From the NCBI GenBank assembly GCA_903834285.1, contig CAILIO010000383.1, positions 1 through 46,116 on the forward strand: DNA of 46,116 bases, in the 5' to 3' direction. Shown piece by piece: positions 2 through 33,385 of the stretch (position 1 is the stretch's first letter; every line of letters begins with the position of its first letter). The stretch comes from an uncultured Sphingomonadales bacterium (GTDB lineage Bacteria; Pseudomonadota; Alphaproteobacteria; Sphingomonadales; Sphingomonadaceae). Both the position numbers and the translations under genes were made by a program. The notes below the pieces were generated by a model, which was given only the letters and a program-made list of their open reading frames with translations, was not told the DNA's origin and did no database searches.

Positions 2-3000
2 TACCCTTATCTCGCGCGTACCATCTGGGGCGATGTCGAAAACTTCCGCGTCGCGGACGGCAGCGTCATGGGCGATTGGCGCGGCGATGCCGGGCGCTGG
101 GAGTCCGGCTACTGGAGCCGCTGGAAAGGCGCATGGGCTTATACCCAGGGCGATTTCGCCATTGCGCATGAGGACGGCTCGTTCTCGTTCCACGGCCGCT
201 CGGATGACGTGATCAACGTCTCGGGCCACCGCATGGGCACCGAGGAAATCGAGGGCGCGGTGCTTCGCGACAAGGCGCTCGATCCCAATTCGCCGGTCGG
301 CAACGTTCTCGTCGTTGGCGCACCGCATCGCGAGAAGGGCCTCACCCCGCTCGCCTTCGTCGTCCCCGTCGCGGGCCGCAAGCTCACCGAGGAAGACCGC
401 CAACGCCTGTTCAGTCTCGTCCGCACCGAAAAGGGCGCGGTCGCGGTTCCCGCCGATTTCATCGAGGTCAGCCAGTTCCCCGAAACACGCTCGGGCAAGT
501 ACATGCGCCGGATGGTCCGTGCGCTCGTCGAAGGCGGCGATCTGGGTGACGTCACCACCCTGCGCAACCCGGAAAGCCTGACCGAGCTCAAGACCGCGAT
601 CGACGCCTGGCAGCGCCAGCAGCGCCTTTCGGAAGAGCAGTCGCTGTTCGAGCGCTACCGCTACTTCCTGATCCAGTACAACGCGGTGGCCCCCGGCAAG
701 CGCGTCGCCACCGTCACGGTCACCAACCCGCCGGTCAACGCGCTGAACGAACGCGCGATCGACGAGCTGGTGATCGTCGTCGAGCACCTTTCGCGCAAGG
801 ACGATGTAGTCGCGGTCGTGTTCACCGGTGAAGGGACATCTTCGTTCGTCGCGGGCGCGGACATCCGGCAGATGCTGGAGGAAATCCACAGCCTCGATGA
901 AGCGCTGGTTCTGCCCAACAACGCGCAACTCGCCTTCCGCAAGATCGAGATGATGGGCAAGCCTTGCATTGCGGCGGTCCAGGGCGTCGCGCTCGGCGGT
1001 GGCATGGAATTCGCGCTCGCCTGCCATGTCCGCGTGGCGGAGACGACCGCGCGCTTCGGCCAGCCCGAAATCCGGCTGCGCCTGCTTCCGGGCTATGGCG
1101 GCACGCAGCGCCTGCCACGCCTGCTGGCGGAGCGCCACGGCGCGACCGGCGTGCGCGATGCGCTCGATCTCATCCTCGGCGGGCGCAGCATCGATGCGAC
1201 GCAGGCGGCAGAGATTGGCCTCGTCGATGTGCTGGCCGAAGGCAGCCGCGATGCCCTTGCCGAAGCCCACGCCATGGTGCGCGATTGGGTGAAGCACGGC
1301 ACCGCCAGCGCACTCGGCAAGGCCTTCGCCGCGCGTGAGGAAGCGACCGTCCTGTGGGAAAAGCCCTCCAGCGTCGATCTCGATGCCGTGCTTCAGGACG
1401 ACTTCCTCCAGCGCATCCTGCGCCAGCTCAATTGGGCCGGACGCGGCACCGCAGGCGCCCGCGCACTCGATGCCGTGCGCACGGGCCTCGTTTCAGGGCT
1501 CTCGGCTGGCATTGCCCGCGAGGCCGCGCTGTTTGCCGAGGCGATCATCGATCCCGAAGGCGGCAAGACCGGCATCCGCCAGTTCATGGACAAAGTCGCG
1601 CCGCCGCTCCCCGTCCGCCGCGACGGCGTGTGGATCGACAGCGAGCACGAGACACGCGCCGCCGAGCTGGAAGCGAATGGCGACCTGCTCCCCGTCGGCG
1701 CGCCGTTCTATCCCGGCGTAACCGCGATCCCGCCGTACCAGTATGCCTTCGGCATAGCCCGCGACGCCGATACCGGCTCCCCGCGCTTTGGCCCGCCCGC
1801 GACGCACGAGCGCGAACTGATCGTCAAGGTGCCCGAGCCCGCGCCCAACGAAGCGCTGCTCTACATGCTGACCAGCGAGGTCAACTTCAACGATATCTGG
1901 GCGCTCACCGGCATCCCCGTCTCGCCGTTCGACAGCCACGAGGAAGACGTGCAAATCACCGGCTCGGGCGGCATCGCGCTTGTCGCCGCGCTCGGCAGCG
2001 AGACGCGCTCGGAAGGCCGCGTCAAGGTCGGCGATCTTGTCACGGTTTATTCGGGCACCAACGATCTGCTCTCGCCCGCGGTCGGTAACGATCCGATGTA
2101 CGCGGATTTCTCGATCCAGGGCTATGAAACCGAAACGGGCAGCCACGCGCAGTTCCTGACCGTGCAGGCGCCGCAAATGCACAAGGTCCCGCCGAACCTC
2201 ACGCTGGAGCAGGCGGGCAGCTATGTGCTGAACCTCGGCACGATCTCGCGCTGCCTGTTCACCACCTTGCAGATCGCGCCGGGCCGCACGCTCTTCGTCG
2301 AAGGCGCCGCCACCGGCACCGGGCTCGATGCGCTGCGCTCCTCGGTGCGGACTGGCCTGCAGGTTACCGGCCTCGTCTCCAGCCCGGACCGTGCTTCATT
2401 CATCACCGGCCAGCAGGGCGCGGTCGGCGCGATCAACCGCAAGGACCCGCGCTTCGCCGATCTCTACACGACCGTGCCCGAAGACACCGAGGCGGCCCGC
2501 GCCTGGGAAGCCGCCGGTGCGTCGCTGGTGGAGGAATACAAGGCGCTCAACGGCGGCAAGCTGGCCGACTACGTCGTCAGCCATGCCGGCGAGACGGCGT
2601 TCCCGCGCAGCTTCCAGCTGCTAGCCGAAAATGGCACGCTGGCGTTCTACGGTGCGTCCTCGGGGTATCACTTCAGCTTCATGGGCAAGCCCGGCAAGGC
2701 GAGCCCCGAAGATATGCTGCGCCGCGCCGCGCTGCGCGGCGGCGAGGCGGTGCTGATCTACTACGGTCCCGGCTCGGACGCGCTGCTCGACGACATGGGC
2801 CTTGAGATCATCGAGGCCGCACGCCGCTTCAACGCGCGCAGCGTCGTGACCACAACCACCGACGGCCAGCGCGAGTTTCTTGGCTCGCTGGGTCTGGAAG
2901 ATGCGATCGAGGGCATCGTCAGCCTTGAAAGCATTCGCCGGCGCGAGGGCGACAACTTCCTCTGGCCCGACACGATGCCGCGCCTGCCCGATGCCAAGGT

Positions 3001-3556
3001 GGATATCGAGGTCTTCAAGGCGGCCGTGCGCGACTATCAGGACCGCGTGATGAAGCCGTTCGGCTCGGCCATCGGCAAGATCCTGCGCTCGCCCGACAAC
3101 CCGCGCGGCGCGCCCGATCTGGTGTTCGAGCGGACCGGGCAGGACACGCTCGGCGTTTCGACCTCGCTGGTGAAGCCCTTCACCGGGCGCGTGGTTTTCG
3201 CCGAGGACTGCGCCGGCAGCCGCTTCACCTTCTACGCGCCGCAAGTCTGGACCCGCCAGCGCAAGATCCTCATGCCCACGGCCGCAATCCTCGGCACGCA
3301 CCTCTGCAATGCCTTCGAGGTCGCGCGCATGAACGACATGATTGCGGCGGGCCTCCTCGAAGTGACCGAGCCAGAAGTCGTCGGCTGGGACGGCCTGCCC
3401 GAGGCCCATCAGTCGATGTGGGACAACCGCCACTCGGGCGCGACCTATGTCGTCAACCACGCCCTGCCCGCGATGGGCCTGCGCAGCCGCGACGCGCTGC
3501 TCGAGGCTTGGGCGGTTCTCGGGGCGACTGAAGAAGCGGAGGCCGCCGATGGCTGA
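2..3556 (+). CDS. pcs: Propionyl-CoA synthase (trifunctional acyl-CoA synthetase / enoyl-CoA hydratase / acrylyl-CoA reductase), 5'-truncated by the window edge
   Basis: Frame is open from base 2 (YPYLARTIWGDVENFRV...). C-terminal acyl-CoA synthetase motifs GRSDDVINVSGHRMGTEEIE and TRSGKYMRR; crotonase domain (GVALGGGMEFALACHVRVAE...FGQPEI); then a crotonyl-CoA reductase-like MDR domain. This three-domain order is characteristic of Pcs. Adjacent to mcr. Confidence 0.9.
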   Translation, partial: YPYLARTIWGDVENFRVADGSVMGDWRGDAGRWESGYWSRWKGAWAYTQGDFAIAHEDGSFSFHGRSDDVINVSGHRMGTEEIEGAVLRDKALDPNSPVGNVLVVGAPHREKGLTPLAFVVPVAGRKLTEEDRQRLFSLVRTEKGAVAVPADFIEVSQFPETRSGKYMRRMVRALVEGGDLGDVTTLRNPESLTELKTAIDAWQRQQRLSEEQSLFERYRYFLIQYNAVAPGKRVATVTVTNPPVNALNERAIDELVIVVEHLSRKDDVVAVVFTGEGTSSFVAGADIRQMLEEIHSLDEALVLPNNAQLAFRKIEMMGKPCIAAVQGVALGGGMEFALACHVRVAETTARFGQPEIRLRLLPGYGGTQRLPRLLAERHGATGVRDALDLILGGRSIDATQAAEIGLVDVLAEGSRDALAEAHAMVRDWVKHGTASALGKAFAAREEATVLWEKPSSVDLDAVLQDDFLQRILRQLNWAGRGTAGARALDAVRTGLVSGLSAGIAREAALFAEAIIDPEGGKTGIRQFMDKVAPPLPVRRDGVWIDSEHETRAAELEANGDLLPVGAPFYPGVTAIPPYQYAFGIARDADTGSPRFGPPATHERELIVKVPEPAPNEALLYMLTSEVNFNDIWALTGIPVSPFDSHEEDVQITGSGGIALVAALGSETRSEGRVKVGDLVTVYSGTNDLLSPAVGNDPMYADFSIQGYETETGSHAQFLTVQAPQMHKVPPNLTLEQAGSYVLNLGTISRCLFTTLQIAPGRTLFVEGAATGTGLDALRSSVRTGLQVTGLVSSPDRASFITGQQGAVGAINRKDPRFADLYTTVPEDTEAARAWEAAGASLVEEYKALNGGKLADYVVSHAGETAFPRSFQLLAENGTLAFYGASSGYHFSFMGKPGKASPEDMLRRAALRGGEAVLIYYGPGSDALLDDMGLEIIEAARRFNARSVVTTTTDGQREFLGSLGLEDAIEGIVSLESIRRREGDNFLWPDTMPRLPDAKVDIEVFKAAVRDYQDRVMKPFGSAIGKILRSPDNPRGAPDLVFERTGQDTLGVSTSLVKPFTGRVVFAEDCAGSRFTFYAPQVWTRQRKILMPTAAILGTHLCNAFEVARMNDMIAAGLLEVTEPEVVGWDGLPEAHQSMWDNRHSGATYVVNHALPAMGLRSRDALLEAWAVLGATEEAEAADG

Positions 3557-3571
3557 CCGACCGCGACGAAC

Positions 3572-3594
3572 GACCGCGCCGCAATAGCGCGGTC
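3572..3594 (+). other. Perfect 8-bp stem hairpin (GACCGCGC-CGCAATA-GCGCGGTC) in the pcs-mcr intergenic region
   Basis: Exact inverted repeat 3572-3579 / 3587-3594; no U-tract follows, so not a canonical intrinsic terminator. Confidence 0.6.
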
Positions 3595-3676
3595 CCCCTC
3601 CCAGCTGCCCTCCCCAGGCCCACTACCACCTCAATCCCGCGCGCTGGATTTCGCGCGCATTCTTCAGGAGAGTGAC

Positions 3677-6600
3677 ATGGCCAAGGCAAAGACTATCGCC
3701 CCCGCGCCGCTCGCAGCGCCCGCTGGCACCCCCACGACCACCGGCCGCCTCGCAGGCAAGATCGCGCTCGTGACGGGCGCTGCCGGCAATCTCGGCGGTT
3801 ATATCGTGCGGCACTATCTGGCCGAGGGCGCAACCGTGGTGATGACCGGCCGCACCGAGGCCCGCCTCGAAGCGGCGGCCGAAGCGATGCGCGCGGCCAG
3901 CGGAGTCGATGCCTCGCGCCTTGCCACCGTGATCCTCGATGGCGGCGATCCGCAGTCGGTTCGCGATGGCGTTGCCGATGTCGTCAGCCGTTTCGGGCGC
4001 ATCGACATCCTCGTCAACAACGCCGGTTCGGCCGGCCCCAAGCAGCCGATCGAACAGCTGCCGTTCGACGAAGAAGAACTCGCGGCCCTCCAGAAGCGCG
4101 GCTCGAACGATACAGAGACCGTCCCGGCCGCGATGCGCAACATCTTCGGCGTCGCGTGGAACCTCGCCCGCACGGTCGCCGCGGCGATGCCCGAGGGCGG
4201 CTCGATTATCAACGTCTCGACCATCTTCTCGCGCACGCCCTATTATGCGCGCGCGGCCTATGTCGTCCCCAAGGCGGCGATGAACGCATGGTCGCGTGAG
4301 CTTTCGCTCGAGCTCGGGCCGCGGGGCATTCGCGTCAATCTCGTCTTCCCCGGCCCCATCGAAAGCGAGCGGATCCGCACCGTGTTCGCCGCGATGGACA
4401 CGATGCGCGGCGATGAGCAGGGCACCACTGCCAACACCTTCTTCGACATGATGTCACTGGAGCGCAGCACCGGCGGCGCGCCCAAGGCCAAGACCTTCCC
4501 GGTGCCGGACGACATCGCCTCGACCTGCGTATTCCTCGGCAGCGACGAATCCGCCGCTTATAATGGGCACGATTTCGAAGTGACCCACGGCATGACCGTG
4601 CGCAAGGAAGAGCGCTCCACTTATCTTGCACGCCCCACCATGCGCTCGATGGACGGCGCGGGCCTCGCGATCCTCATCGCGGCCGGTGAAGGCTGGGAAG
4701 AAGCGCTCGAGATCGCGAAGATCCAGATCGCCTGCGGCACCAACGTGCTCCTCGGCGTGCCGCGGCAAGCCGACGTCGCCATCGCGCAGGCGCGTGCCAA
4801 GGCGGAAGGGATCAGCGACGCGCTCACCATCGTGCGCTTCAACCGCACCGAGCCCGCCACGATCGAGGCTGCGCTCGCCACCTACACCGAAAGCAACACG
4901 CCGATCACCGGCGCGATCTTCATGCCGGTCTATGGCCCGCAGGAATTCGGCGGCCGCCTCGTCGATGCTGAAGACGATGTGATCGAGACTTTCATGGATG
5001 TCGAACTCGTCGGCGCCATGGCGCTCGCCCGCACGCTAAGCCGCTACTGGAAGCGCCATGGCTCGCTGCTCCAGGCGCCGCGCTTCATCTTCATGTCGAA
5101 CGCCAGCGACGGCAAGGACAACGTCTACGCCAACGTGCTGCGCGCCGCGATCGAGCAGCTCATCCGAATCTGGCGCGATGAATCCGAGATCGACGTCGCC
5201 CATGGCCGCCGCCGTCAGGGCGAATGGGGCAACCAGATCGTGCGCTTCAGCAATGCGGAAAGCGAAAACACCCGCTTTGCCGCCGGGCATGCCGCACGCG
5301 TGCTGATCAAGGAAAGCAAGATCGCAGAAGTCACGCTCTATGTGCCCCGCAGTATTGGCGAGGCAACGGGCGCGCGCAAGGCGATGGCGGGTTTCAGCGA
5401 GAACATCACCGGCCTGCATCTCGGCAAGGTTGCGCTGATCACCGGCGGCTCGGCCGGCATCGGCGGCCAGGTTGCGCGCCTCCTCGCGCTGGCAGGCGGC
5501 AAGGTCATGATGGTCGCCCGGCGCGAGAGCGAGCTGGCCGTCGCCCGCGCGCGGATCGTGAGCGAACTGGAAGACATCGGCTTCGCCGGGGTCGAGCGGC
5601 GCGTCCAGACCATGGCCGGTATGGACGTTAGCAATCTCGACAGCCTCAAGGCGGCCGTCGACGCCACGATCAAGGCCTTCGGGCGGATCGACTACCTCAT
5701 CAACAACGCCGGCGTTGCGGGCGCGGAAGAGATGGTCGTCGACATGAGCCTCGACGCTTGGAACTACACGCTCGACGCCAACCTCATCTCGAACTTCGTG
5801 CTGATGCATCACGTCGTGCCGATCATGAAGACGCAAGGCTCTGGCTACGTGCTCAACGTCTCGTCCTACTTCGGCGGCGAGAAATACCTCGCGGTCGCCT
5901 ATCCCAACCGCTCCGACTACGCCGTCTCCAAGTCCGGCCAGCGCGCAATGGTGGAATCGATGGCGCGCTACCTCGGGCCCGAAGTGCAGTTCAACGCGAT
6001 CGCCCCCGGCCCGGTCGATGGTGACCGCCTGGCCGGCACAGGCGGCAAACCCGGCCTGTTCGAGCGGCGCGGCAAGCTGATCCTTGCCAACAAGCGCCTC
6101 AATGCGATCCACGCCGCGGCGGTCAAGTCGCTCCGGCGCGGGGTGCGGGTGGAGGCGCTGCTCGGCCGCCTCACGCGCAACGATACTGTCCGCATGTCGC
6201 ACGATACCAACAACCCGCGCGAAATTCGCGAGTTGGCCTTGGCCTGCGCGCGCGAGGGTGACGGCGTGTGCACCTGGGACCGGTATCTGATGACGCCAGA
6301 CATCGCCGCCAAGCTCGTCAAACGGCTGCGCGGCGCCGGCTATTTTCTTGATAGCCCCGAGTGGGCGGACAGGCCCGATACCCAGGAGGCTAACTCCGGT
6401 TGGTTGCTCAAGACCCCGCCCGAGGACCAGCCCTTCCTCCCCGGCGACAAGATCGCGGTCGAGGCCAAAAAGGTCGGCACGGGCGTGCTCTCGCAGCTCT
6501 TCCTCGGCAAGATGCCGACCGAGACCGACGTGGCGCAGGCGACCGTGTTCTTCCTCGCCGACCGCGCCGTTTCGGGCGAGACCTTCATGCCCTCGGGTGG

Positions 6601-7387
6601 CCTCAGCGTCGAACGTTCGACCACCGAGCGCGAACTGTTCGGCAGCCCCAAACAGGAACGGCTCGACCAGATGCGCGGCCGCACCGTGTGGATGATCGGC
6701 GAGCACCTCACCGACTACCTTGCCGAAACCGCGCGGCAGTTCATCGTGGATTGCCACGTCGCGCGCGTGGTGATGATGACCGGCACCGAGGGCGCCTTCA
6801 CCGCGCTCAAGGAGCAGCTCGACGATCTCGAAAGCCCACCGCTCGAATATGTCGGGCTGGAAGGCGGCGTCGAGGCTGCGATGGACGAAGCGATCCGCCA
6901 ATGGGGCTATCCCACCACGATCGTCTCGACCCCCATGCAGCCGCTGCCGAACCGGCTGTTCGCGGTTGATGCGCTGCTCACGCCGGAGGAATTCCGCGGC
7001 CTGGTGGGCGACAACCTGACCAATCATTTCCGCGTCGCCCGCAAGGCCTCGCTCTATGATGATTGCCAGCTCGTCCTCGTTTCGCCCGACGTGCCGATGG
7101 GCGACAAGAGCCCGGCCTTCGCGCTTGCCAACTTCATCAAGACGACGCTGCACTCGTTCACCGCCACGTTGGCCGTGGAGAACGAGCGCCTCGTTCACGG
7201 CGCACCGGTCAACCAGATCAACCTTACCCGCCGCGTCCGGTCGGAAGAGCCGCGCGACCTTGACGAGCATCTCGAAGAAGTGAAGCGCTTTGCCCGCGCG
7301 GTGCTCCTCGTCGGCACTCCCCTCCCGGATGCCGAAGATTCGCGCTATCGTGCGCGCATCTATCGCGGGATGTCGATGACGGTGTAG
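3677..7387 (+). CDS. mcr: Bifunctional malonyl-CoA reductase (two tandem SDR modules)
   Basis: 1236 aa; N-terminal SDR (GKIALVTGAAGNLGG; YVVPK) and C-terminal SDR (GKVALITGGSAGIGG; YAVSK), matching the Chloroflexus/Erythrobacter-type Mcr size and architecture. AGGAG ribosome-binding site at 3666-3670. Confidence 0.92.
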   Translation: MAKAKTIAPAPLAAPAGTPTTTGRLAGKIALVTGAAGNLGGYIVRHYLAEGATVVMTGRTEARLEAAAEAMRAASGVDASRLATVILDGGDPQSVRDGVADVVSRFGRIDILVNNAGSAGPKQPIEQLPFDEEELAALQKRGSNDTETVPAAMRNIFGVAWNLARTVAAAMPEGGSIINVSTIFSRTPYYARAAYVVPKAAMNAWSRELSLELGPRGIRVNLVFPGPIESERIRTVFAAMDTMRGDEQGTTANTFFDMMSLERSTGGAPKAKTFPVPDDIASTCVFLGSDESAAYNGHDFEVTHGMTVRKEERSTYLARPTMRSMDGAGLAILIAAGEGWEEALEIAKIQIACGTNVLLGVPRQADVAIAQARAKAEGISDALTIVRFNRTEPATIEAALATYTESNTPITGAIFMPVYGPQEFGGRLVDAEDDVIETFMDVELVGAMALARTLSRYWKRHGSLLQAPRFIFMSNASDGKDNVYANVLRAAIEQLIRIWRDESEIDVAHGRRRQGEWGNQIVRFSNAESENTRFAAGHAARVLIKESKIAEVTLYVPRSIGEATGARKAMAGFSENITGLHLGKVALITGGSAGIGGQVARLLALAGGKVMMVARRESELAVARARIVSELEDIGFAGVERRVQTMAGMDVSNLDSLKAAVDATIKAFGRIDYLINNAGVAGAEEMVVDMSLDAWNYTLDANLISNFVLMHHVVPIMKTQGSGYVLNVSSYFGGEKYLAVAYPNRSDYAVSKSGQRAMVESMARYLGPEVQFNAIAPGPVDGDRLAGTGGKPGLFERRGKLILANKRLNAIHAAAVKSLRRGVRVEALLGRLTRNDTVRMSHDTNNPREIRELALACAREGDGVCTWDRYLMTPDIAAKLVKRLRGAGYFLDSPEWADRPDTQEANSGWLLKTPPEDQPFLPGDKIAVEAKKVGTGVLSQLFLGKMPTETDVAQATVFFLADRAVSGETFMPSGGLSVERSTTERELFGSPKQERLDQMRGRTVWMIGEHLTDYLAETARQFIVDCHVARVVMMTGTEGAFTALKEQLDDLESPPLEYVGLEGGVEAAMDEAIRQWGYPTTIVSTPMQPLPNRLFAVDALLTPEEFRGLVGDNLTNHFRVARKASLYDDCQLVLVSPDVPMGDKSPAFALANFIKTTLHSFTATLAVENERLVHGAPVNQINLTRRVRSEEPRDLDEHLEEVKRFARAVLLVGTPLPDAEDSRYRARIYRGMSMTV

Positions 7388-7399
7388 CGGGACGGTTTG

Positions 7400-8341
7400 A
7401 TGGAATACCTGGCGTTCGAAAAGCCGATCGAAGCCCTCGCGAAGCGCGCCGCCGCACTCCGCGAGGGCAAAGGCGTCTCTGGTGAAGGCGAGGCGGAGGC
7501 GCTGATGCTCGACGAGCGGGCGCACCGCCAGCTCGGGGACATCTACGCGCGGCTCACCCCGTGGCAGCGAACGCAAGTGGCGCGGCATCCTTCGCGGCCG
7601 CATTTCGTCCACTATGTGCAGGGTCTGTTCGAGGACTTCCTGCCGCTGGGCGGCGACCGGCTCTATGGCAATGACCAGGCGATCATCGGCGGCTTCGCGC
7701 GGCTTGGCGGGCGCCCGGTGATGGTCATCGGCCATGCCAAGGGCGAAGATACCGCCTCGCGCCTGAGGCACAATTTCGGCATGGCGCGCCCCGAAGGCTA
7801 TCGCAAAGCCATCCGCCTGATGGAAATTGCCGACCGCTTCGGCCTCCCCGTCATCACGCTGGTCGATACGCCGGGCGCGTTCCCCGGCGTCGATGCAGAG
7901 GCGCGCGGACAGGCCGAAGCCATTGCGCGCAGCACCGAGAAGTGCCTCGAAATCGGCGTGCCGCTCGTCGCCGTGATCGTCGGCGAAGGTGGCTCGGGCG
8001 GCGCGGTCGCGCTCGCCAGTGCCAACCGCGTGCTGATGCTCGAACATGCGGTCTACTCGGTGATCTCGCCCGAAGGCTGCGCCTCGATCCTGTGGCGCGG
8101 CGCGGACCGCGCGCCCGATGCAGCCGAAGCGATGAAGATGACCGCGCCCGATCTCATGCAGCTCGGCGTGATCCACCGCGTGGTCTACGAGCCCATCGGC
8201 GGCGCGCACCGCAACCACGCCGAGACGATCAAGCGGCTCAGCACCGCGCTGCGCGCGGAGCTGCAGGACCTGACCTCGCTGACGGCTGAAGAATTGCGTG
8301 CCGACCGCTGGTCGTTCTTCATGAAGCTGGGTTCGATTTGA
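7400..8341 (+). CDS. accA: Acetyl-CoA carboxylase carboxyltransferase subunit alpha
   Basis: MEYLAFEKPIEALAKR...HPSRPHFVHYVQGLFEDFLPLGGDRLYGND...GMARPEGYRKAIRLM...VDTPGAFPGVDAEARGQAEAIA; classic AccA. ATG at 7400 preferred to TTG at 7397. Confidence 0.93.
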   Translation: MEYLAFEKPIEALAKRAAALREGKGVSGEGEAEALMLDERAHRQLGDIYARLTPWQRTQVARHPSRPHFVHYVQGLFEDFLPLGGDRLYGNDQAIIGGFARLGGRPVMVIGHAKGEDTASRLRHNFGMARPEGYRKAIRLMEIADRFGLPVITLVDTPGAFPGVDAEARGQAEAIARSTEKCLEIGVPLVAVIVGEGGSGGAVALASANRVLMLEHAVYSVISPEGCASILWRGADRAPDAAEAMKMTAPDLMQLGVIHRVVYEPIGGAHRNHAETIKRLSTALRAELQDLTSLTAEELRADRWSFFMKLGSI

Positions 8342-8345
8342 CCGC

Positions 8346-8747
8346 ATGCCTGAAAGCGCGATCGAAAACGAGCGAGACGACCGCGAAGTGCTGCATGGCA
8401 TGCGCGGCGGCCCCGGCAGCGTCACGCTTCGCCACTTCCGATTTGACGGAAAGGGCGCGCCGACGCGCTTCCTGATCCTTGAAATCCCGCCTGGCGCCGC
8501 CGAGGGCAGCCACACCCATTACGCGGACGACCGCAACGGCACCGGTGCCTACGAGGAATTCTACTACGTCATCGCGGGGCGCGGCCTCGCAACGCTGGGC
8601 GACGAGACGTACCCCGTCGCGACCGGCGACTACTGGCATGCCCCGCTCGATCTGCCGCGCGGGCTGGCCAATGCCGATCCGGTTGAAGTGCTCAAGGTTC
8701 ATCTGACCGTGGTGCTGCGCGATCCGGACAGGCCAGAGCAGCCCTAA
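8346..8747 (+). CDS. Cupin-domain protein
   Basis: Starts 5 nt after accA; cupin-like GSHTHYADD...YEEFYYVIAGRGLATLGDETYPVATGDYWHAP. Confidence 0.75.
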   Translation: MPESAIENERDDREVLHGMRGGPGSVTLRHFRFDGKGAPTRFLILEIPPGAAEGSHTHYADDRNGTGAYEEFYYVIAGRGLATLGDETYPVATGDYWHAPLDLPRGLANADPVEVLKVHLTVVLRDPDRPEQP

Positions 8748-9385
8748 AGGCGCAGGCAGGCCTCTTCGGCGATGGCCCTCGCGCGCGTCGGCGCGGCTCC
8801 CAGCCCAGTCAGGCCCAGCACCAGCATCGCATGGAGCGCCGTACGCGCGGCATCGTTGCCGGGCCGCTGCTCGACGAGGTTGGCCATGAGAATTTGGCAC
8901 AAGCCCAGCCAGTAGAGCACCCCGCCATCCCGCGCTTCTTCGCGCACCAGTCCTGCGCCAAGCGCCACGGCCAGATCGTGTACCAACCCGCGGTTGAGCG
9001 GATGGCTGCTGAGCGTCGAGCTTGCATGGCTGCGCAGCAGGACAATCGTGCGCTTGGGCTCGGCCAGCGCGAACACTGCGCCGGTGCGCATGCCGCCTGC
9101 AATCCGCAGAAGCGGATCGGCTACTTCGGCATTGGCCGCGCTAATGCGGCCTTCCAGTTCGAGCCGGACCTCATCGCCAATTGCCGATGCGAACGCAGGT
9201 TTGTCGGAAAAGTGATTGAAGAAGCTGCCTTTCGCGACGCCTGCCCGCGCCACAACCTCATCGATCGGGATCGCGTCGATCGGCTTTTCGGCCAGTAGTT
9301 CGAAGCCGGCAGCGATCAGAGCGCTGCGTGTGCGTGCCGCCCTGGGGGACAGCGTGGGGGGTAACAGGACGGGATGCGATGCCAT
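8744..9385 (-). CDS. TetR/AcrR family transcriptional regulator
   Basis: N-terminal HTH: RTRSALIAAGFELLAEKPIDAIPIDEVVARAGVAKGSFFNHFSDKPAF. Confidence 0.9.
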   Translation of the reverse strand: MASHPVLLPPTLSPRAARTRSALIAAGFELLAEKPIDAIPIDEVVARAGVAKGSFFNHFSDKPAFASAIGDEVRLELEGRISAANAEVADPLLRIAGGMRTGAVFALAEPKRTIVLLRSHASSTLSSHPLNRGLVHDLAVALGAGLVREEARDGGVLYWLGLCQILMANLVEQRPGNDAARTALHAMLVLGLTGLGAAPTRARAIAEEACLRL

Positions 9386-9488: not shown

Positions 9489-10508
9489 ATGCCGGTGATC
9501 AGGATCGATGACATTGCGCATGTCCGCTTTGCCGCGCCAGACCTTGCGGTGATGCGCGGCTTTCTGAACGATTTCGGCTTCGAGACTTTTGAGGATAGCG
9601 GACGCCTCTACGGCCGCGGCCGCGATGGCCGTCCGTTCGTCCACGTCACCGAGCCCGGCGAAACGCGCTTCCTCGCGGTGGGCCTGCGCGCCGCCTCGCT
9701 TGCCGATCTGGAGACGCTTGCGGTGGCCGAAGGCGTTTTGGTTGAACCCCTGGACGAACCCGGTGGCGGCCACGTCGTCCGGCTGGTCGATCCTGATGGC
9801 TACCGGGTCGAGGTCGTTGCCGGGCAGGAGGTGCATGCGCCCACCCCTCCCGTCGCCGATCCGCCGCGCAACACCGCCGCTGCCAAACCTCGCATGCGCG
9901 CGCCTTTGCGGCTCACGAGCGCCCCGGCCCATATCCAGCGCATCGGCCATGCCGTCCTGCGCGTGCGTGATTTCCGCAAGTCGGAAGGTTGGTACAAAGC
10001 CCGCTTCGGCCTCTTGACCTCGGACGAAGTGGAAGCGGCCAAAGGCGTCCCCCTCGGAGCATTCCTGCGCTGCGATCGCGGCGACGTGCCCAGTGACCAC
10101 CACACACTGTTCCTCGCGCAGCTGCCCGGCCCGCCCGGGCTGCTCCACGCCGCGTTCGAAGTCGCTCATTTCGACGACCTGATGCTTGGCCACCAGCACC
10201 TCAAGGCGGCAGGCCACAAGCCCGCATGGGGTGTGGGCCGCCACATCATGGGTAGCCAGATTTTCGACTACTGGCGCGATCCCTTCGGCAACGAGCTCGA
10301 GCACTGGACCGACGGCGATCTCTTCACCGCAGCGGATCCGCCGCAGAAACAGACCATGCAGGCGCTCCTTGCGGTGCAATGGGGCTCGCCCCATCCCATG
10401 CAGGCTGGCCGTCTTGCCCCGCCTACCAGCCTCGTCGCTTTCCTCATGGCGCTGCGCTTGCGCGTCCTCCGCCTTTTCCGCCGCAGATCAGAAGGTACCC
10501 CCGCATGA
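9489..10508 (+). CDS. Type I extradiol (VOC-fold) ring-cleavage dioxygenase
   Basis: Two VOC domains; putative 2-His-1-carboxylate ligands in RIGHAVLRV, GLLHAAFEV and FGNELEHW. Confidence 0.8.
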   Translation: MPVIRIDDIAHVRFAAPDLAVMRGFLNDFGFETFEDSGRLYGRGRDGRPFVHVTEPGETRFLAVGLRAASLADLETLAVAEGVLVEPLDEPGGGHVVRLVDPDGYRVEVVAGQEVHAPTPPVADPPRNTAAAKPRMRAPLRLTSAPAHIQRIGHAVLRVRDFRKSEGWYKARFGLLTSDEVEAAKGVPLGAFLRCDRGDVPSDHHTLFLAQLPGPPGLLHAAFEVAHFDDLMLGHQHLKAAGHKPAWGVGRHIMGSQIFDYWRDPFGNELEHWTDGDLFTAADPPQKQTMQALLAVQWGSPHPMQAGRLAPPTSLVAFLMALRLRVLRLFRRRSEGTPA

Positions 10509-11344
10509 AGCTCGCCACTTATACCTCCGCTGGCCGCATCGGCACCGGCATCATCGTCGGGGACCATGTGATCGATACCGGCATCGAAGGGACGATGATC
10601 GACTTGATCCGCGATTGGGACGCACTGAAGGACGGACTTGCCGCAAAGGCGGCGGCGGGCGGCGGTGTGCCTCTTGCCGAAGTGACACTCGAAGCCCCCA
10701 TCCCGCGCCCCGGCAAGATCTTCGCCATTGGCCTCAACTATGCTGATCATATTGCTGAATCCAATATGCAAAAACCCGAGCGGCAGGTGTGGTTCACCAA
10801 AGCGCAGACCAGCGTCAACGCGCCTTTTGCCGATATCGAGATCGCCAGAGGCCAGATGACCACCGATTACGAAGTCGAACTCGTCGCGGTGATCGGCAAG
10901 GGCGGCAAGCATGTCTCCGCCACCGACGCCCCAGCCTCGATCTTCGGCTACTGCGTCGGCAACGATGTGACCGAGCGGATGTGGCAGCACGCTTCGCCGC
11001 AGTGGTCGCTCGGCAAGAGCTTCGACACCCACGCGCCGATGGGCCCGTGGATCGTCACTGCCGATGAAGTGGGTGATCCGCACTCCCTTGGCCTGCGTTG
11101 CTTTGTGAATGGCGAAAAGCGTCAGGATTCCAATACGTCACACCTCGTTTTCAACATCTGGCAGCAGGTCGAGCACCTCTCCGTCGGCATGACGCTGGAG
11201 CCGGGCGACTGCCTCTTCACCGGTACCCCCGGCGGCGTCGGCGCGGCGATGGACCCGCGCCAGTTCCTTAAAGCAGGCGATGTCGTCCGCTGCGAGATCG
11301 ACAACTTGGGTCACATCGAAGGCACCATGATCGCGGAAGGGTAA
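10505..11344 (+). CDS. Fumarylacetoacetate hydrolase (FAH) family protein
   Basis: IFAIGLNYADHIAESN...TTDYEVELVAVIGKGGKHV...GYCVGNDVTER...SFDTHAPMGPWIV; ATG at 10505 overlaps the upstream stop (ATGA). Confidence 0.88.
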   Translation: MKLATYTSAGRIGTGIIVGDHVIDTGIEGTMIDLIRDWDALKDGLAAKAAAGGGVPLAEVTLEAPIPRPGKIFAIGLNYADHIAESNMQKPERQVWFTKAQTSVNAPFADIEIARGQMTTDYEVELVAVIGKGGKHVSATDAPASIFGYCVGNDVTERMWQHASPQWSLGKSFDTHAPMGPWIVTADEVGDPHSLGLRCFVNGEKRQDSNTSHLVFNIWQQVEHLSVGMTLEPGDCLFTGTPGGVGAAMDPRQFLKAGDVVRCEIDNLGHIEGTMIAEG

Positions 11345-11348
11345 GGCC

Positions 11349-12809
11349 ATGGCCTTCGATTGCGATGTCCTGATCGCGGGTGGCGGGCCGACTGGCGTCA
11401 CGCTGGCGATCCTGCTCGCTCAACGCGGTGTGAAAGTGATCGTCGCTGAGAAGGAAGCGGAAATCTACCCGCTCCCCCGCGCCGCGCACATCGATCACGA
11501 AGGCATGCGCATCCTGCAGGAGGCCCGTGCGGCCGATGCCGTCATGGCCACCAGCCGCCGCGCCGCGCGCTATGAATTTCGCAATGCGCGGGGAGAAGTG
11601 CTGCTGTGCTTCGCAGGCTCGGACCGCCTCGGCCCGGGAGGTTGGCCGGGCGCCAACATGATCCACCAGCCCTCGGTCGAACGCGCACTGCGGACAAGCC
11701 TAGCCACCTGCCCCGATGCCGCGCTTCATGGTGGCTGGGAACTCGGCGTATTCGCCGAAGATGCGGAGGGCGTCACCGCGCAGATCGCCACGCCCGAAGG
11801 AGAGCGCACCGTCCGGACGCGCTGGCTCATCGGCGCGGATGGCGCGCGCTCGCCCGTGCGCAAGGCGATGGGGATCGCCTATGACGATCTCAACTTTGAA
11901 GAACCATGGCTGGTAATCGACGCGCTCGTCGATGATCCTGCGCGGCTGCCCACGGCCAATCTCCAGATCTGCGATCCCAAGCGCCCGACAACCTGCGTGC
12001 TGATGGGCGAAGGCCGCCACCGCTGGGAATTCATGATCCTGCCGGGCGAAACGCCTGAACAAGTGAGCGATGATGCCTTTATCTCGAGGCTGCTAAAGCC
12101 CTGGAATGTTGAAGGCGCAGTGCGGCTCGAGCGCAAGGCAGTCTACACCTTCCGCGCGCGCATTGCCCGCGAGTGGCGCAAGGGCCGCGTTTGCCTGGCC
12201 GGCGATGCTGCGCACCAGACCCCGCCGTTTGCCGGGCAGGGAATGTGTTCGGGCCTGCGCGATGCGGCCAATCTCGCGTGGAAACTGGCCGCGGTGATCA
12301 AGGATGGCGCGCCGGATAGCCTGCTCGACAGCTACCAGCCGGAACGCGAGCCCAACTTGCGAGCGACTATCGCGATGGCGATCATGATGGGCCGCATGGT
12401 CTGCACCACAAGCCGGTGGGGCGCTTTCCTGCGCGACACGAAAATGCGCATCGGCCGCGCACTGGGCAAGCTGCCTTCCGGGCCGCCGGGCTATCCGCCC
12501 ATCTCGACCGGAGCGATCCTAGTGGGCAGCGCGGGCGCGGGCAGCTATTTCCCGCAAGCCGTGGCGAGCGATGGCCCGAAGCTGGATGACCGCCTTGGCA
12601 ATAATGCGTGGCTGATCACGCGCGGCGGACTTGCGGCACCCGCCGTCACATCCTTCGCCCCTGCCCTGGCAGCATGGCTCGACACGCATCAAGCCGAAGC
12701 CGTGCTGGTGCGGCCCGACCGACATGTCTTCGGCACGGGCAATGCCACAACGCTCCGGGCCGCGTGGAAGGCCGCAACCGGCCTTGAGCCGCCCCCGCCC
12801 CTCGCCTAA
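11349..12809 (+). CDS. FAD-dependent aromatic monooxygenase (phenol hydroxylase/MhpA-like)
   Basis: [32 protein letters not shown]; second FAD motif [35 protein letters not shown]. Confidence 0.88.
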
Positions 12810-15709: not shown

Positions 15710-16600
15710 ATGAATTTCGAAACGTTCATCACCTGCGCCGTGACCGGCTCGGGCAACACCGCCGACAAGCATCCGGGCCTGCCCGTCACCCCTGCGCAGA
15801 TCGCTGACGCCGCGATCGAAGCGGCCAAGGCGGGCGCAGCCATCGCCCATATCCACGTGCGCGATCCGCAAACCGGCAAGGGCAGCCGCGATGTCGCGCT
15901 TTACCGCGAAGTGGTCGAGCGCATCCGCGCGAGCGATACCGACGTGGTGATCAACCTCACAGCGGGCATGGGCGGCGATATCGTCTTCGGTCCCGGTGAA
16001 AACCCTTTCCCGCTCGACGCAGCCGGCACCGACATGGTCGGCCCGATGGAACGTCTGCTCCACGTGCAGGAACTGCTGCCGGAGATCTGCACACTCGATT
16101 GCGGCACGATGAATTTCGCCGAAGCCGATTATGTGATGACCAACACGCCCGGCATGCTGCGAACCATGGCCGCCGAGGTGCAGCGCCTTGGTGTGCGGCC
16201 CGAGCTGGAGGTGTTCGATACCGGCCATCTCGTCTTCGTGAAGGAGCTGATCCGCGACGGGCTGCTCGATGATCCGGTGATGATCCAGCTGTGCATGGGC
16301 ATCCCCTATGGTGCGCCGGATGATCCTCTGACGACGATGGCGATGGTGCACCAGCTGCCGCCGGGCGCCGTGTTCAGCGGGTTCTCGATCGGACGCAATC
16401 AGCTGCCCTTCGTCGCCATGGCGGCGCTGGCAGGCGGCAATGTGCGCGTGGGGCTGGAGGACAACCTCTACATCGGGCGGGGGCAGCTTGCGACGAACGG
16501 AGCACTGGCCGAGCGCGCGGTGCAGATCCTCACCGGCATGGGTGCCCGCATCCTCACGCCAGCCGAAGTGCGCGCCAAGCTCAAGCTGCAGAAGCGCTGA
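15710..16600 (+). CDS. cdhC: Beta-keto acid cleavage enzyme (BKACE/DUF849); probable 3-dehydrocarnitine cleavage enzyme by context
   Basis: [65 protein letters not shown]; located next to carnitine dehydrogenase. Confidence 0.82.
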
Positions 16601-16613
16601 GGAAACTGACGAA

Positions 16614-18113
16614 ATGACATCTGAAATCCGCCCTGTTCTCAACCGTGTCGGCATTGTCGGCGGCGGCGTAATCGGCGCTGGTTGGGCCGCGCGCTTCGTG
16701 CTCAACGGCATCGACGTCTCGGTCTACGATCCCGATCCCGAAATCGAGCGCAAGACCGCCGCCGTCCTCGCCAATGCCCGCCGTGCGCTGACGCGCCTGT
16801 TCGGCAATGCATTGCCCGCCGAAGGCACTGTCACCTTCGCCAAGACACTTGCCGAGGCAGTGCACGAGGCCGATTTCATCCAGGAGAGCCTCCCCGAGCG
16901 CGAGGATCTCAAGATCCGCCTGCTTGCCGAAATGGACGCGGCAATGCCCGCCCACGCGGTGATCGGCTCGTCCACTTCGGGCCTGCTGCCGACCAAGCTC
17001 CAGTCCGGCATGGCGCGGCCTGACCGGCTCGTTGTCGGCCATCCGTTCAACCCGGTCTATCTCCTGCCGCTCGTGGAAATCTGCGGCGGAGACCAGACCA
17101 GTCAGGAAACCAAGGACATCGCCGCCGCCGTCTACACGCGGATCGGCATGAAGGTGCTCCATGTCCGCAAGGAAATAGACGGTTTCATCGCCGATCGCCT
17201 GCTCGAAGCCGTCTGGCGCGAGGCGCTGTGGCTGATCAAAGATGGCGTGGCGACCGCGTCTGAAATCGACGACGCGGTGCGCTTTGGCGCTGGCATGCGC
17301 TGGTCGTTCATGGGCACCTTCCTCGTTTACCGGCTAGCGGGCGGCGAAGAGGGCATGCGCCATTTCCTCCACCAGTTCGGCCCCTCCATGGAATGGCCCT
17401 GGACCAAGCTGATCGGCCCCAAGCTGACCGACGAGCTGATCGACACGATCGCGCGCCAGTCCGACGAGCAGGCGGGCGGGATCGATCTGCGGACCTATGA
17501 AAAGCTGCGCGACGATTGCCTTGTCGATCTCACCCACGCGCTGGAGCGCAATGATTTCGCCTCGGGCCAAGTCGCGCGCGCGCACCGGGCGCGGCTTGCC
17601 GAGGCGGGCAAGGCCGCTGCACCCGCGATCGGCTCGATCCTCGCCGACGGGCGGATGCTCACCATCGCGACCGCGGTCCAGCCCGAATGGATCGACTACA
17701 ACGAGCACCTCACCGAATATTGCTACCTCAAGCTGTTCGGCGACGGCTCCGACGTGGTGCTGGCCAAGATCGGCGCGGGCGCGGACTACGTCGCGGCAGG
17801 CCATTCGTGGTACACGGTCGAGACGCATATCCGCCATCTCGGGCAGGCGCGGCTGGGCGATGATGTCGAAGTGCGCACGCGCGTGCTGGCAAGCGATGGC
17901 AAGCGACTCCACCTGTTCCACGAAATGGTGCGCGGGCCCGAAACCGTGGTGATCGCGACCGCCGAGCACATGCTGGTCCATGTCGATGCGGCAGCAGAGA
18001 AATCGGCCCCCGCGCCGGAGGCCATGCAGGCAGCGGCGAAGGCGCTCGTGGCCGGACAGGCGCACCTGCCGCCGCCCGAGGGTATGGGCCGCCAAATCCG
18101 GATGCCGGGTTAA
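16614..18113 (+). CDS. lcdH: L-carnitine 3-dehydrogenase fused to a C-terminal hot-dog thioesterase (betainyl-CoA thioesterase-like)
   Basis: RVGIVGGGVIGAGWAARFVLNGIDVSVYDPDPE (NAD-binding), GHPFNPVYLLPLVEICGG; C-terminal WIDYNEHLTEYCYLKLFGDGSD thioesterase motif. Start ATG at 16614. Confidence 0.85.
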   Translation: MTSEIRPVLNRVGIVGGGVIGAGWAARFVLNGIDVSVYDPDPEIERKTAAVLANARRALTRLFGNALPAEGTVTFAKTLAEAVHEADFIQESLPEREDLKIRLLAEMDAAMPAHAVIGSSTSGLLPTKLQSGMARPDRLVVGHPFNPVYLLPLVEICGGDQTSQETKDIAAAVYTRIGMKVLHVRKEIDGFIADRLLEAVWREALWLIKDGVATASEIDDAVRFGAGMRWSFMGTFLVYRLAGGEEGMRHFLHQFGPSMEWPWTKLIGPKLTDELIDTIARQSDEQAGGIDLRTYEKLRDDCLVDLTHALERNDFASGQVARAHRARLAEAGKAAAPAIGSILADGRMLTIATAVQPEWIDYNEHLTEYCYLKLFGDGSDVVLAKIGAGADYVAAGHSWYTVETHIRHLGQARLGDDVEVRTRVLASDGKRLHLFHEMVRGPETVVIATAEHMLVHVDAAAEKSAPAPEAMQAAAKALVAGQAHLPPPEGMGRQIRMPG

Positions 18114-18146
18114 CCGCAAGCGCCTACGAGGGGGAACGCAGACCGC

Positions 18147-19553
18147 ATGGCCTTGGTTGAAACGCGCTCGATCGATTACATTCCGCTCGCCGAGCGGAAA
18201 GGCAAAGTGCGCGATCTCTGGCCGGTGTGGTTCATGGGCGACGCGCATCTTGCGACGCTGGCGACGGGCGCGATCAGCGTCGCGGGCGGGTTGGATCTGT
18301 TCTGGTCGAGCCTTGCGGTGATCGGCGGCTGCGCTCTGGGCACGGTGCTGATGGCGCTTCACTGCACGCAAGGGCCCCATTTGGGCCTGCCGCAGATGAT
18401 CCAGTCGCGGCCCCAGTTCGGCTATATCGGCGCGCTCCTGGTCTGGATCGTCGCGCTGTTCACTTACATCGGGTTCAACGCGCTCAACCAGTCGCTGGCG
18501 GCCAGCACGCTTCGGGAGCTCGCTGGGGTGTCGGAAGCACCCGCGATCATTGGGTTCGGGCTCGTGGCCGCTCTGGTCGCGGTGATCGGCTACGATTTGA
18601 TCCACAGGGCGCAGCGGGTACTCGCCTATGTCATGATGGCGGCACTGGCAGTCTATACAGGCGGTCTCTTCCTGACGGTCGATCTCGCGGCCCTGTTGCA
18701 GCCCGGCGAATTCAGGCTGACACTGTTCCTCGTCCAATTCTTTGCGGCGGCGGGCTATCAGTTGAGCTGGTCGATCTATGTTTCCGATTACTCACGCTAT
18801 CTGCCACGCGAGGTGGGCATCCGCGCCTCGTTCTTCTGGACCTTTTGCGGGGCCTTCATCGGCGGGGCGTCGATGATGCTGGTAGGGGCCTTTGCGGGCG
18901 CTGCCTATGCCGATCCCGATATCATCGTGGCGCTGCGGCGCAGTGCGGACGCGATGTTCGGCGGGTTTGGCTGGATCATGCTGGTCAGCAGCTTTGGCGG
19001 GCTGATCACGATCACCTCGCTCAATCTCTATGGTTCCTCGCTAACGCTGCTGAGCGTGATCGACAGCCTGCGTCCGATCCGGCTGGGTGTCGCCCCGCGC
19101 ATGGCGGCGCTGGCGGTGGTCTTTGTCGCCTCACTCTCGCTCTCGCTGGCGATGAGCGGGAACGTGCTCCACAGCTTCGAGGCGTTTCTGGGCGTGCTGG
19201 TCTACCTCTTCACGCCGTGGACCGCGATCAACCTCGCGGATTTCTTCTTCGTGCGCAAAGGGCATTACTCGATCCGCGCGATGTTCATGGCGGACGGCAT
19301 TTATGGCCGCTGGAACTGGCGCGGGCTGACTTCTTACACTGTCGGCTTTGCGTCGATGATCCCCTTCTTCAAGACCGAGCTCTATGTGGGGCCGGTGGCG
19401 CGGGCCCTTGGCGGGGCGGATATCTCGATGCTGATCGGGTTGCCGGTCTCGGCGGCGGTCTATGTCTTCCTGTGCCGCAGTATGGACCTTGCTGCCGAAC
19501 TGGCGCAGATTCCCGCGCTTGACCGCAGTCTGGAAACGGAACCGGTGCGATGA
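18147..19553 (+). CDS. Multi-helix permease, NCS1 (purine/cytosine permease)-like
   Basis: Very hydrophobic, about 12 TM segments; QMIQSRPQFGYIGALL; SIYVSDYSRYLPREVGIRASFFWTFCGAFIG; FTPWTAINLADFFFVRKGHYSIRAMF. Confidence 0.72.
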   Translation: MALVETRSIDYIPLAERKGKVRDLWPVWFMGDAHLATLATGAISVAGGLDLFWSSLAVIGGCALGTVLMALHCTQGPHLGLPQMIQSRPQFGYIGALLVWIVALFTYIGFNALNQSLAASTLRELAGVSEAPAIIGFGLVAALVAVIGYDLIHRAQRVLAYVMMAALAVYTGGLFLTVDLAALLQPGEFRLTLFLVQFFAAAGYQLSWSIYVSDYSRYLPREVGIRASFFWTFCGAFIGGASMMLVGAFAGAAYADPDIIVALRRSADAMFGGFGWIMLVSSFGGLITITSLNLYGSSLTLLSVIDSLRPIRLGVAPRMAALAVVFVASLSLSLAMSGNVLHSFEAFLGVLVYLFTPWTAINLADFFFVRKGHYSIRAMFMADGIYGRWNWRGLTSYTVGFASMIPFFKTELYVGPVARALGGADISMLIGLPVSAAVYVFLCRSMDLAAELAQIPALDRSLETEPVR

Positions 19554-20617
19554 TCCTGCGCTGGCTGGCCTTGGCGGCGCTGGTGCTTGCGACACCGGTG
19601 AGCGCGCAGCCGATCGCCTTTCCCGATCATTTCGACCCCATCGGCACCCCGATTTCGAGCCTCAAGACGAGCGAAGGGCGCACGGTGCACTATACCGACA
19701 CCGGCGAGGCCGGCTGGCGTCCGATGCTCTTCATCGGCGGCGTCGGCACCAGCGCCCGCGCACCGGAACTCGTCTCCTTCCTCGATACCCTGCGCCGCCG
19801 CCTTAAGGTGCGGATCGTGGCGGTCGAACGCAATGGCCTTGGCGACACCGCCTATGACCCGGCGTGGACCTTCGCCGACTACACCAGCGAAGTGCAGCAA
19901 ATTCTCGGCCATCTCGGCATCGGGAAATTCGCGCTCGTCGCGATCTCGGGCGGCGGGGCTTATGCCGGCCATATTGCCGCGGCCATGCCCGAGCGGATCA
20001 CCTCCTGGCACATGCTCGCGGCCATCGCCTCCGCGCCCGCCGACAATCCGGTGTGCAAGGCCGACGCCGCCACTTTGGAAGCCATGCTCGCCAAGCAGGT
20101 CGGCGCTCCGCGCGAATTCTGGGCCATGCCGCCTGACGGTGTCGCTGCCAAAGTCAACGGCTTTGCCGACCGCGCCGCAGACGAGGGCGCCCATGCCTAC
20201 TTCATCGCCGGACAGCATGGCGACGCGCGTGCCGTCGCACGTGAATACCACCGCTTCTGCGACGCTCCCGCCCCCGTCGCGGCCTTCCCCGCTCCGGCGT
20301 ATTTCTACTACGGCGAGGCGGACAAGCTGGTGCCTCCATCGCAAGGCGATTTCTGGGCCAGCAAAGTCGCGGGCAAGGTGACCTTCCGCCGCTATCCCGG
20401 CGAAGGCCACGACGTGCAATATCGCCACTGGGACCAGCTCCTGCTCGATGTCGGCGGCCACGGCGACGCGACGCTGGTTTGCACGAAGGGCCGCGCGGGG
20501 TTGGTACCCGGCCTTGTCGAACCTGCCGCGCTGCCACGGGGCGACACGCTCGGCGTTTGCGCTTGGCAGGGCCGCAACACCGCCCCAAGGGAGCCGGACC
20601 ATGCCGCCCACAAGTGA
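19550..20617 (+). CDS. Exported alpha/beta hydrolase
   Basis: N-terminal signal peptide MILRWLALAALVLATPVSAQ; nucleophile elbow VAISGGGAYAGHIAA; C-terminal GEGHDVQYRHWDQ. ATGA overlap with the upstream permease. Confidence 0.75.
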   Translation: MILRWLALAALVLATPVSAQPIAFPDHFDPIGTPISSLKTSEGRTVHYTDTGEAGWRPMLFIGGVGTSARAPELVSFLDTLRRRLKVRIVAVERNGLGDTAYDPAWTFADYTSEVQQILGHLGIGKFALVAISGGGAYAGHIAAAMPERITSWHMLAAIASAPADNPVCKADAATLEAMLAKQVGAPREFWAMPPDGVAAKVNGFADRAADEGAHAYFIAGQHGDARAVAREYHRFCDAPAPVAAFPAPAYFYYGEADKLVPPSQGDFWASKVAGKVTFRRYPGEGHDVQYRHWDQLLLDVGGHGDATLVCTKGRAGLVPGLVEPAALPRGDTLGVCAWQGRNTAPREPDHAAHK

Positions 20618-21167
20618 TGACAAGACCCACGGCCTCACCACCCCGCTCGAAGGTGTGGCTGCTGAACCATTCCAGCCCGGCGAGGCCATCCCCGCGCCGC
20701 TGCGTCTGATCCGCCCCATCGTCCCGCACGAATGGGTCGACTACAACGGTCACATGAGCGAATCCTGCTATCTACTTGTTTTCGGGGATCAGTCCGACGC
20801 GTTCTTCCGCAAGATCGGCATCGACGAGGCCTATCGCGCCGGCGGGCATTCGCTGTTCACCGTGCAGACGATGATCTTCAACCTCGCCGAAGCACATCTG
20901 GGCGATCCGCTCGATCTCGCGCTCCAGCTGATCGATGCGGACGACAAGCGCCTGCACATCTTCCACACGATGCACCACGGCGAGACGGGTAAACTCCTCG
21001 CGACCGGCGAGCAGATGCTGGTGCATGTCGACATGAACGCGGGTCGCTCGGCGCCCATGCCGCCGGACTTGCACGCCACGGTGCATGCAGTTCTGACCGC
21101 GCACGCCGGGCTTGAACGCCCCGCGCAAGCGGGCCGCTCCATCGGAATCAGACGGGATCCCAAGTGA
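20601..21167 (+). CDS. Thioesterase family protein (hot-dog fold), similar to the C-terminal domain of the 16614-18113 protein
   Basis: EWVDYNGHMSESCYLLVFGDQSDAFFRKIG...LHIFHTMHHGETGKLLATGEQMLVHVDM; start ATG at 20601. Confidence 0.8.
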   Translation: MPPTSDDKTHGLTTPLEGVAAEPFQPGEAIPAPLRLIRPIVPHEWVDYNGHMSESCYLLVFGDQSDAFFRKIGIDEAYRAGGHSLFTVQTMIFNLAEAHLGDPLDLALQLIDADDKRLHIFHTMHHGETGKLLATGEQMLVHVDMNAGRSAPMPPDLHATVHAVLTAHAGLERPAQAGRSIGIRRDPK

Positions 21168-31699: not shown

Positions 31700-31711
31700 A
31701 GTGGCTCTCCT

Positions 31712-33301: not shown

Positions 33302-33385
33302 CGCTTGTGCCCTTTCGCGGCCTGAGCGCGCCAGCGCGTCCGAGTCTGACGCTGCCTTCCGCAACCAAATAAACGATTCCAAATC

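Follow-up and report, generated by a model that had tools for sequence, protein, structure and literature searches.

The pcs-mcr-accA gene cassette described here has been inherited apart from the photosystem of its host, yet it is retained in hardly any genome that lacks one. We assign a probability of roughly two in three to the reading that this cassette is mobile and, with the support of light, enables an aerobic anoxygenic phototroph to co-assimilate acetyl-CoA and CO2 to succinyl-CoA, without conferring autotrophy. An initial annotation, made from the DNA sequence alone, had likewise favored CO2-consuming assimilation instead of full autotrophy, and the genome-wide evidence supports it on this point. 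As a marker of two genes that follows the photosystem in its occurrence and has a history of its own, pcs-mcr provides a direct genetic handle on the extent of light-enabled CO2 fixation in aerobic anoxygenic phototrophs.

The pcs-mcr-accA cassette

The stretch of DNA analyzed (the window; 46,116 nucleotides) makes up all of contig C383, which belongs to a draft genome (4.10 Mb in 425 contigs; 99.6% complete). The cassette occupies its first edge, where the three genes lie consecutively on one strand, as originally described:

2..3556, + strand: pcs, 3' two thirds (acyl-CoA synthetase C-terminal piece, enoyl-CoA hydratase and enoyl-CoA reductase domains)
3557..3676, + strand: pcs-mcr spacer of 120 bases, ending with a ribosome-binding-like AGGAG ahead of the mcr ATG
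3677..7387, + strand: mcr, intact bifunctional malonyl-CoA reductase of 1236 aa (full-length matches to 6k8s, 8hi4, and 8hjw; catalytic residues conserved)
7400..8341, + strand: accA, extra acetyl-CoA carboxylase carboxyltransferase alpha subunit (PF03255, 431 bits; NF004344, 439 bits)

The first open reading frame (2-3556) is cut off by the contig edge, and the 1184 aa that it encodes are the C-terminal part of propionyl-CoA synthase (Pcs). It aligns end to end with structure 6eqo (residues 668-1841, 1996 bits) and carries the Pfam domains AMP-binding_C, ECH, and ADH_zinc_N, which bears out its earlier description as a 5'-truncated, three-domain Pcs. The annotation had asked whether the N terminus might fall outside Pcs. 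The missing 631 aa are found at C195:26-1918, the end of another contig of the same genome, and are Pcs as well, with 94% identity to the protein of Novosphingobium sediminis. The two contig ends have 18 bases in common and then mismatch across the last 8 bases of C195, and we therefore infer one intact pcs whose join was not assembled. When the C195 and C383 parts are combined across this presumed join, the three-domain fusion of synthetase, hydratase, and reductase is present.

The match of Mcr to solved full-length and half-length Mcr structures (6k8s, 1254 bits; 8hi4, 1122 bits) covers the whole protein, in agreement with the earlier call of an intact enzyme. Structures 8hi4 and 8hjw align to residues 21-1236, indicating that the alcohol-dehydrogenase-type and CoA-acylating reductase halves are fused at full length. 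These structural matches, together with that of Pcs to 6eqo, rule out a chance open reading frame or a misannotation. Mcr had been called a two-SDR protein, a count that needs correction because its relatives have four tandem SDR domains per subunit, according to PMC10470521. The SDR1 motifs Y-x-x-R-x-x-Y and Y-x-x-x-K (Y189, R192, Y195, and K199), the SDR3 triad Ser/Tyr/Lys (S730, Y748, and K752), and the SDR3 substrate residues Arg/Arg/Leu/Arg (R745, R784, L794, and R798) are all present in the window protein and invariant in 15 relatives. The reference residues of the Roseiflexus enzyme RfxMCR are S731, Y749, K753, R746, R785, L795, and R799 (PMC10470521). The window Mcr is thus predicted to convert malonyl-CoA to 3-hydroxypropionate (3-HP) in an NADPH-dependent manner.

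The identity of AccA is secured by its PF03255 match and by a full-length NF004344 score well above the curated cut-off of 357. The gene was listed as an open reading frame at 7397-8341 with a TTG start. The ATG that directly follows, at 7400, is the more likely start and would leave 12 bases between mcr and accA. A search for a second accA in the same genome located one at C13:4947-5900 that is 65% identical to the window copy, which is therefore additional. It had also been proposed that this accA is co-regulated with malonyl-CoA reduction. Adjacency alone suggests as much, but most relatives lack accA beside mcr.

The host genome

The annotation correctly placed the DNA in an alphaproteobacterium, and had called the host a probable heterotroph. 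This is contradicted by contig C327, where a check for photosynthesis genes recovered bchI, bchD, bchX, bchY, bchZ, pufL, pufM, and pufC, all above curated cut-offs, and hence both bacteriochlorophyll genes and a type II reaction centre. By gene content, the host appears to be a facultative aerobic anoxygenic phototroph and a relative of N. sediminis. That species is the nearest named relative among the matches listed (Mcr, 94% identity). The first 11.3 kb of the window are collinear with its genome at 86% nucleotide identity, and the host PufLM proteins are also closest to those of N. sediminis (97%). Contamination of the bin by the window contig is accordingly unlikely.

The enzymes that lead from propionyl-CoA to succinyl-CoA, whose presence elsewhere in the genome had been left to be checked, were found on contigs C67 and C234 as pccA, pccB, methylmalonyl-CoA epimerase, and methylmalonyl-CoA mutase (MCM). 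The mutase gene is divided by a contig break. The pccB gene carries one in-frame stop near positions 3300-3311 of C67 (- strand), directly upstream of the open reading frame at 2301-3299. This stop is possibly an assembly error, as a sequencing error and a mutation look alike here.

Isocitrate lyase, another gene to be looked for, is also encoded (1059 bits), and the cassette is therefore not required for growth on acetate. Of the anaplerotic role originally proposed, CO2-consuming assimilation stands and a strict need on acetate does not. Likewise, the idea that the cassette substitutes for a glyoxylate shunt is unsupported, since isocitrate-lyase-family matches occur in 43 of 45 genomes tested, with or without mcr. 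With Pcs as the query, no crotonyl-CoA carboxylase-like protein was evident in the host genome and no reductase-region match exceeded 21 bits, which speaks against an ethylmalonyl-CoA pathway. RuBisCO was not found in the host genome and occurs in just one of the 57 family genomes with a reaction centre. In that genome it lies at G142:C1:3789352-3790275, ~12 kb from the genome's own mcr at 3802057.

Co-occurrence with photosystems

The tight association of the cassette with photosystems is the interesting part of these findings, and pieces of it are present in earlier papers. In 301 family genomes, drawn evenly, Mcr was found in 31 and a reaction centre (PF00124 above cut-off) in 57. Reaction-centre genes are present in 29 of the 31 genomes with mcr vs 28 of the 270 without it (Fisher p = 2.7e-22), and the two exceptions are genomes that are 67% and 88% complete. 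When counted by genus, 11 of 12 genera with mcr and 17 of 84 others have a reaction centre (Fisher p = 2.4e-6). Because genomes are related, and kinship beyond genus is ignored, both p-values overstate independence. In this family, mcr on a contig thus predicts phototrophy, a rule that would have corrected the heterotrophic reading. The converse is looser, as 28 of the 57 genomes with a reaction centre are without mcr.

The same pattern extends to a wider collection of at least 48 named genomes with mcr, which were obtained from GTDB loci matched by two degenerate peptide patterns and overlap with the family sample. PF00124 is present in 40 of the 48 among the matches listed, and the positive groups include gammaproteobacteria, Burkholderiales, Gemmatimonadota, Myxococcota, Parvularculaceae, and Roseiflexus. 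Three of the eight negatives (two Chlorobiota and one Chloracidobacterium) have a type-I-like centre (PF00223, 28-30 bits, cut-off 23). The sampled genome of Thermochlorobacter, a known type I phototroph, gave no match to PF00124 or PF00223. The last four are metagenome-assembled genomes (MAGs) of 1.9-2.3 Mb, one of which has an Mcr that is merely 32% identical.

Neither this near-exclusive tie between pcs-mcr and the photosystem nor the conflict between Mcr and PufLM trees described below is stated in the passages of the literature consulted, and we claim no priority. Photosynthetic Burkholderiales MAGs and Gemmatimonadota MAGs with 3-HP bicycle genes have been reported (PMC9802188).

Separate histories of cassette and photosystem

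The cassette and the photosystem have separate histories. In the PufLM tree, the host groups with N. sediminis and a genome of the same genus that lacks mcr, within a set of four genomes (support 98). In the Mcr tree, the window groups instead with Sphingomonas and Porphyrobacter/Erythrobacter, and this placement is rejected by the PufLM data (the smallest set has a p-AU of 0.004, and larger sets have 2e-5 and 7e-42). The association is therefore not mere co-transfer, and co-inheritance with the photosystem is ruled out as the whole explanation. When mapped on the PufLM tree, the presence or absence of mcr requires at least 11 changes, at least six of which are forced by well-supported branches. 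Six other genomes of the host's genus lack mcr, and one of these has puf. Photosynthesis clusters can also move, so the tree conflict reveals different histories and not which of the two moved.

The cassette is also not a part of the photosynthesis cluster, being on a different contig in the host and megabases away in some relatives. In several of the genomes G007, G136, G097, G209, and G274, mcr lies 63-75 kb from pufLM, and in others the distance is megabases. Partial linkage in some genomes is possible. Control of the cassette by PpsR was considered and rejected, because the PpsR-type site TGT-N12-ACA is not enriched upstream of pcs (two seen vs 3.6 expected at 68 loci).

Gene order and known relatives

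In 28 of 29 family relatives, pcs is located immediately upstream of mcr, and the contig of the remaining one begins just before mcr. The same adjacency is found in beta- and gammaproteobacteria, Gemmatimonadota, and Myxococcota. Placement of accA right after mcr is limited to a single clade of sphingomonads (19 sequences; support 91), in which the gene was appended once. Outside that clade, accA is near mcr in a Roseiflexus contig and in Glacieibacterium (2 kb off). The AccA copies of the window, N. sediminis, Sphingomonas, and Porphyrobacter group together (98/96) in a tree that broadly matches those of Mcr and Pcs, and the three genes therefore seem to travel as a unit. In a gammaproteobacterial MAG (L145) that gave no reaction-centre match, a full Pcs (51%) is beside a highly divergent Mcr (32%), and the order of the two genes is reversed.

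The initial annotation regarded the enzymes as not new, and we agree. They and the pcs-mcr pair are already known from Erythrobacter sp. NAP1 and Porphyrobacter (6eqo; 6k8s/6k8v), which are sphingomonad aerobic anoxygenic phototrophs like the window host and share with it both enzymes and gene order. The full pcs-mcr-accA arrangement is likewise present in Porphyrobacter and Erythrobacter strains (L081, L083, L084, L088, and L093). Unlike these organisms, the window host is nearest to N. sediminis (L079) among the matches listed, and the clade to which its Mcr belongs conflicts with its PufLM.

More distant systems share less. The half of the Chloroflexus/Roseiflexus 3-HP bicycle that leads from acetyl-CoA through propionyl-CoA to succinyl-CoA is common to the window host. 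The Roseiflexus contig (L111) also has accA beside mcr and pcs, but in the order accA-mcr-pcs, and the Roseiflexus Mcr is ~47% identical to that of the window. Halieaceae and their relatives (HTCC2080 and NOR5-3; L132 and L134) resemble the window host in having adjacent pcs and mcr and a type II reaction centre. Unlike the window, they have no accA alongside, and their Mcr is only ~40% identical and falls into a different lineage, together with those of Myxococcota and Longimicrobiales.

Proposed function and alternatives

The three genes make up a complete cassette that is probably functional. We propose that AccA, together with the housekeeping AccBCD subunits, would carboxylate acetyl-CoA with bicarbonate to yield malonyl-CoA, which Mcr would reduce with two NADPH to 3-HP. 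Pcs would then activate, dehydrate, and reduce this compound (ATP to AMP, one NADPH) to give propionyl-CoA, from which propionyl-CoA carboxylase, the epimerase, and MCM, encoded elsewhere in the genome, would form succinyl-CoA. In sum, this route converts acetyl-CoA, two bicarbonate, three NADPH, and ~4 ATP equivalents to succinyl-CoA. In the light, cyclic photophosphorylation would provide ATP and spare reductant, so that acetyl units could be carboxylated rather than burnt. Porphyrobacter ULC335 is reported to have key enzymes of the 3-HP bicycle but no complete pathway for carbon fixation; its bicycle genes are up-regulated in the daytime, and co-assimilation of CO2 was proposed in that study (PMC10674011). 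Light-supported co-assimilation is ranked first on the basis of this daytime up-regulation and the ATP expected from cyclic electron flow.

A different possibility is that the cassette serves light-independent, dark assimilation of 3-HP, malonate-derived substrates, or substrates that yield acetyl-CoA, in which case the link to photosystems would stem from a common lifestyle, such as that of oligotrophic surface waters. Substrate assimilation has been proposed for incomplete 3-HP gene sets (PMC9802188), and almost all family genomes examined have MCM (44 of 45), with or without mcr. However, Pcs alone would suffice for the use of 3-HP, which does not need Mcr, and the two genes are adjacent wherever a family contig permits. 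Moreover, mcr is almost missing from relatives without reaction-centre genes (two of 244). We consider this explanation unlikely.

The cassette might instead act chiefly as a redox valve, using up three NADPH for each acetyl-CoA when the cell is over-reduced by light or by reduced substrates, with carbon being secondary. This stoichiometry follows from established biochemistry, and the rarity of RuBisCO noted above would fit. Such a valve would cost ATP, however, and aerobes can shed electrons by respiration; the window itself encodes a cytochrome bd oxidase. Its role as the main benefit seems decidedly improbable. Autotrophy by the full 3-HP bicycle is harder still to credit: the first-cycle enzymes up to succinyl-CoA are in the host, and bicycle gene sets are reported for phototrophic Burkholderiales MAGs and for Gemmatimonadota MAGs (PMC9802188), but there is no sign of the glyoxylate-assimilation cycle of Chloroflexus/Roseiflexus in a search with the mesaconyl-CoA hydratase family PF19315 alone, which gave just 36-37 bits over partial stretches of the host genome and is a weak test, the Roseiflexus control reaching only 30 bits.

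Light-supported co-assimilation may also have a broader counterpart, which we advance tentatively and at slightly less than even odds. Under this proposal, pcs-mcr(-accA) would be a mobile cassette that conserves carbon and needs a photosystem in its host to be retained. It would have repeatedly entered or been lost from phototrophs of the Pseudomonadota, Gemmatimonadota, Myxococcota, Chloroflexota, Chlorobiota, and Acidobacteriota, and would rarely persist without ATP from chlorophyll-based phototrophy.

Other genes in the window

A TetR gene is located downstream of the cassette at 8744-9385. The idea that it encodes a regulator of the AcuR type, acting on acrylate metabolism, was rejected, because the match is in the DNA-binding part only (39 bits vs a cut-off of 247). 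Just downstream, genes at 9489-12809 for an extradiol-dioxygenase-like VOC protein, an FAA hydrolase, and a 3-(3-hydroxyphenyl)propionate-hydroxylase-like flavoprotein suggest aromatic catabolism. The region at 16440-25163 encodes a carnitine 3-dehydrogenase (NF005716, 655 bits, cut-off 592), a further short protein that matches this enzyme in its C-terminal part, an NCS1-type transporter, an acyl-CoA dehydrogenase, and acetate--CoA-ligase-like and crotonobetainyl-CoA-hydratase-like proteins; it is a probable cluster for the degradation of carnitine or a related betaine. Subunits I and II of the cytochrome bd oxidase are encoded on the - strand within 30554-36504, beside divergent CydD-like and second ABC exporter genes. 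Finally, adjoining genes at 39397-43211 encode alpha-amylase-family and GH92 glycoside hydrolases.
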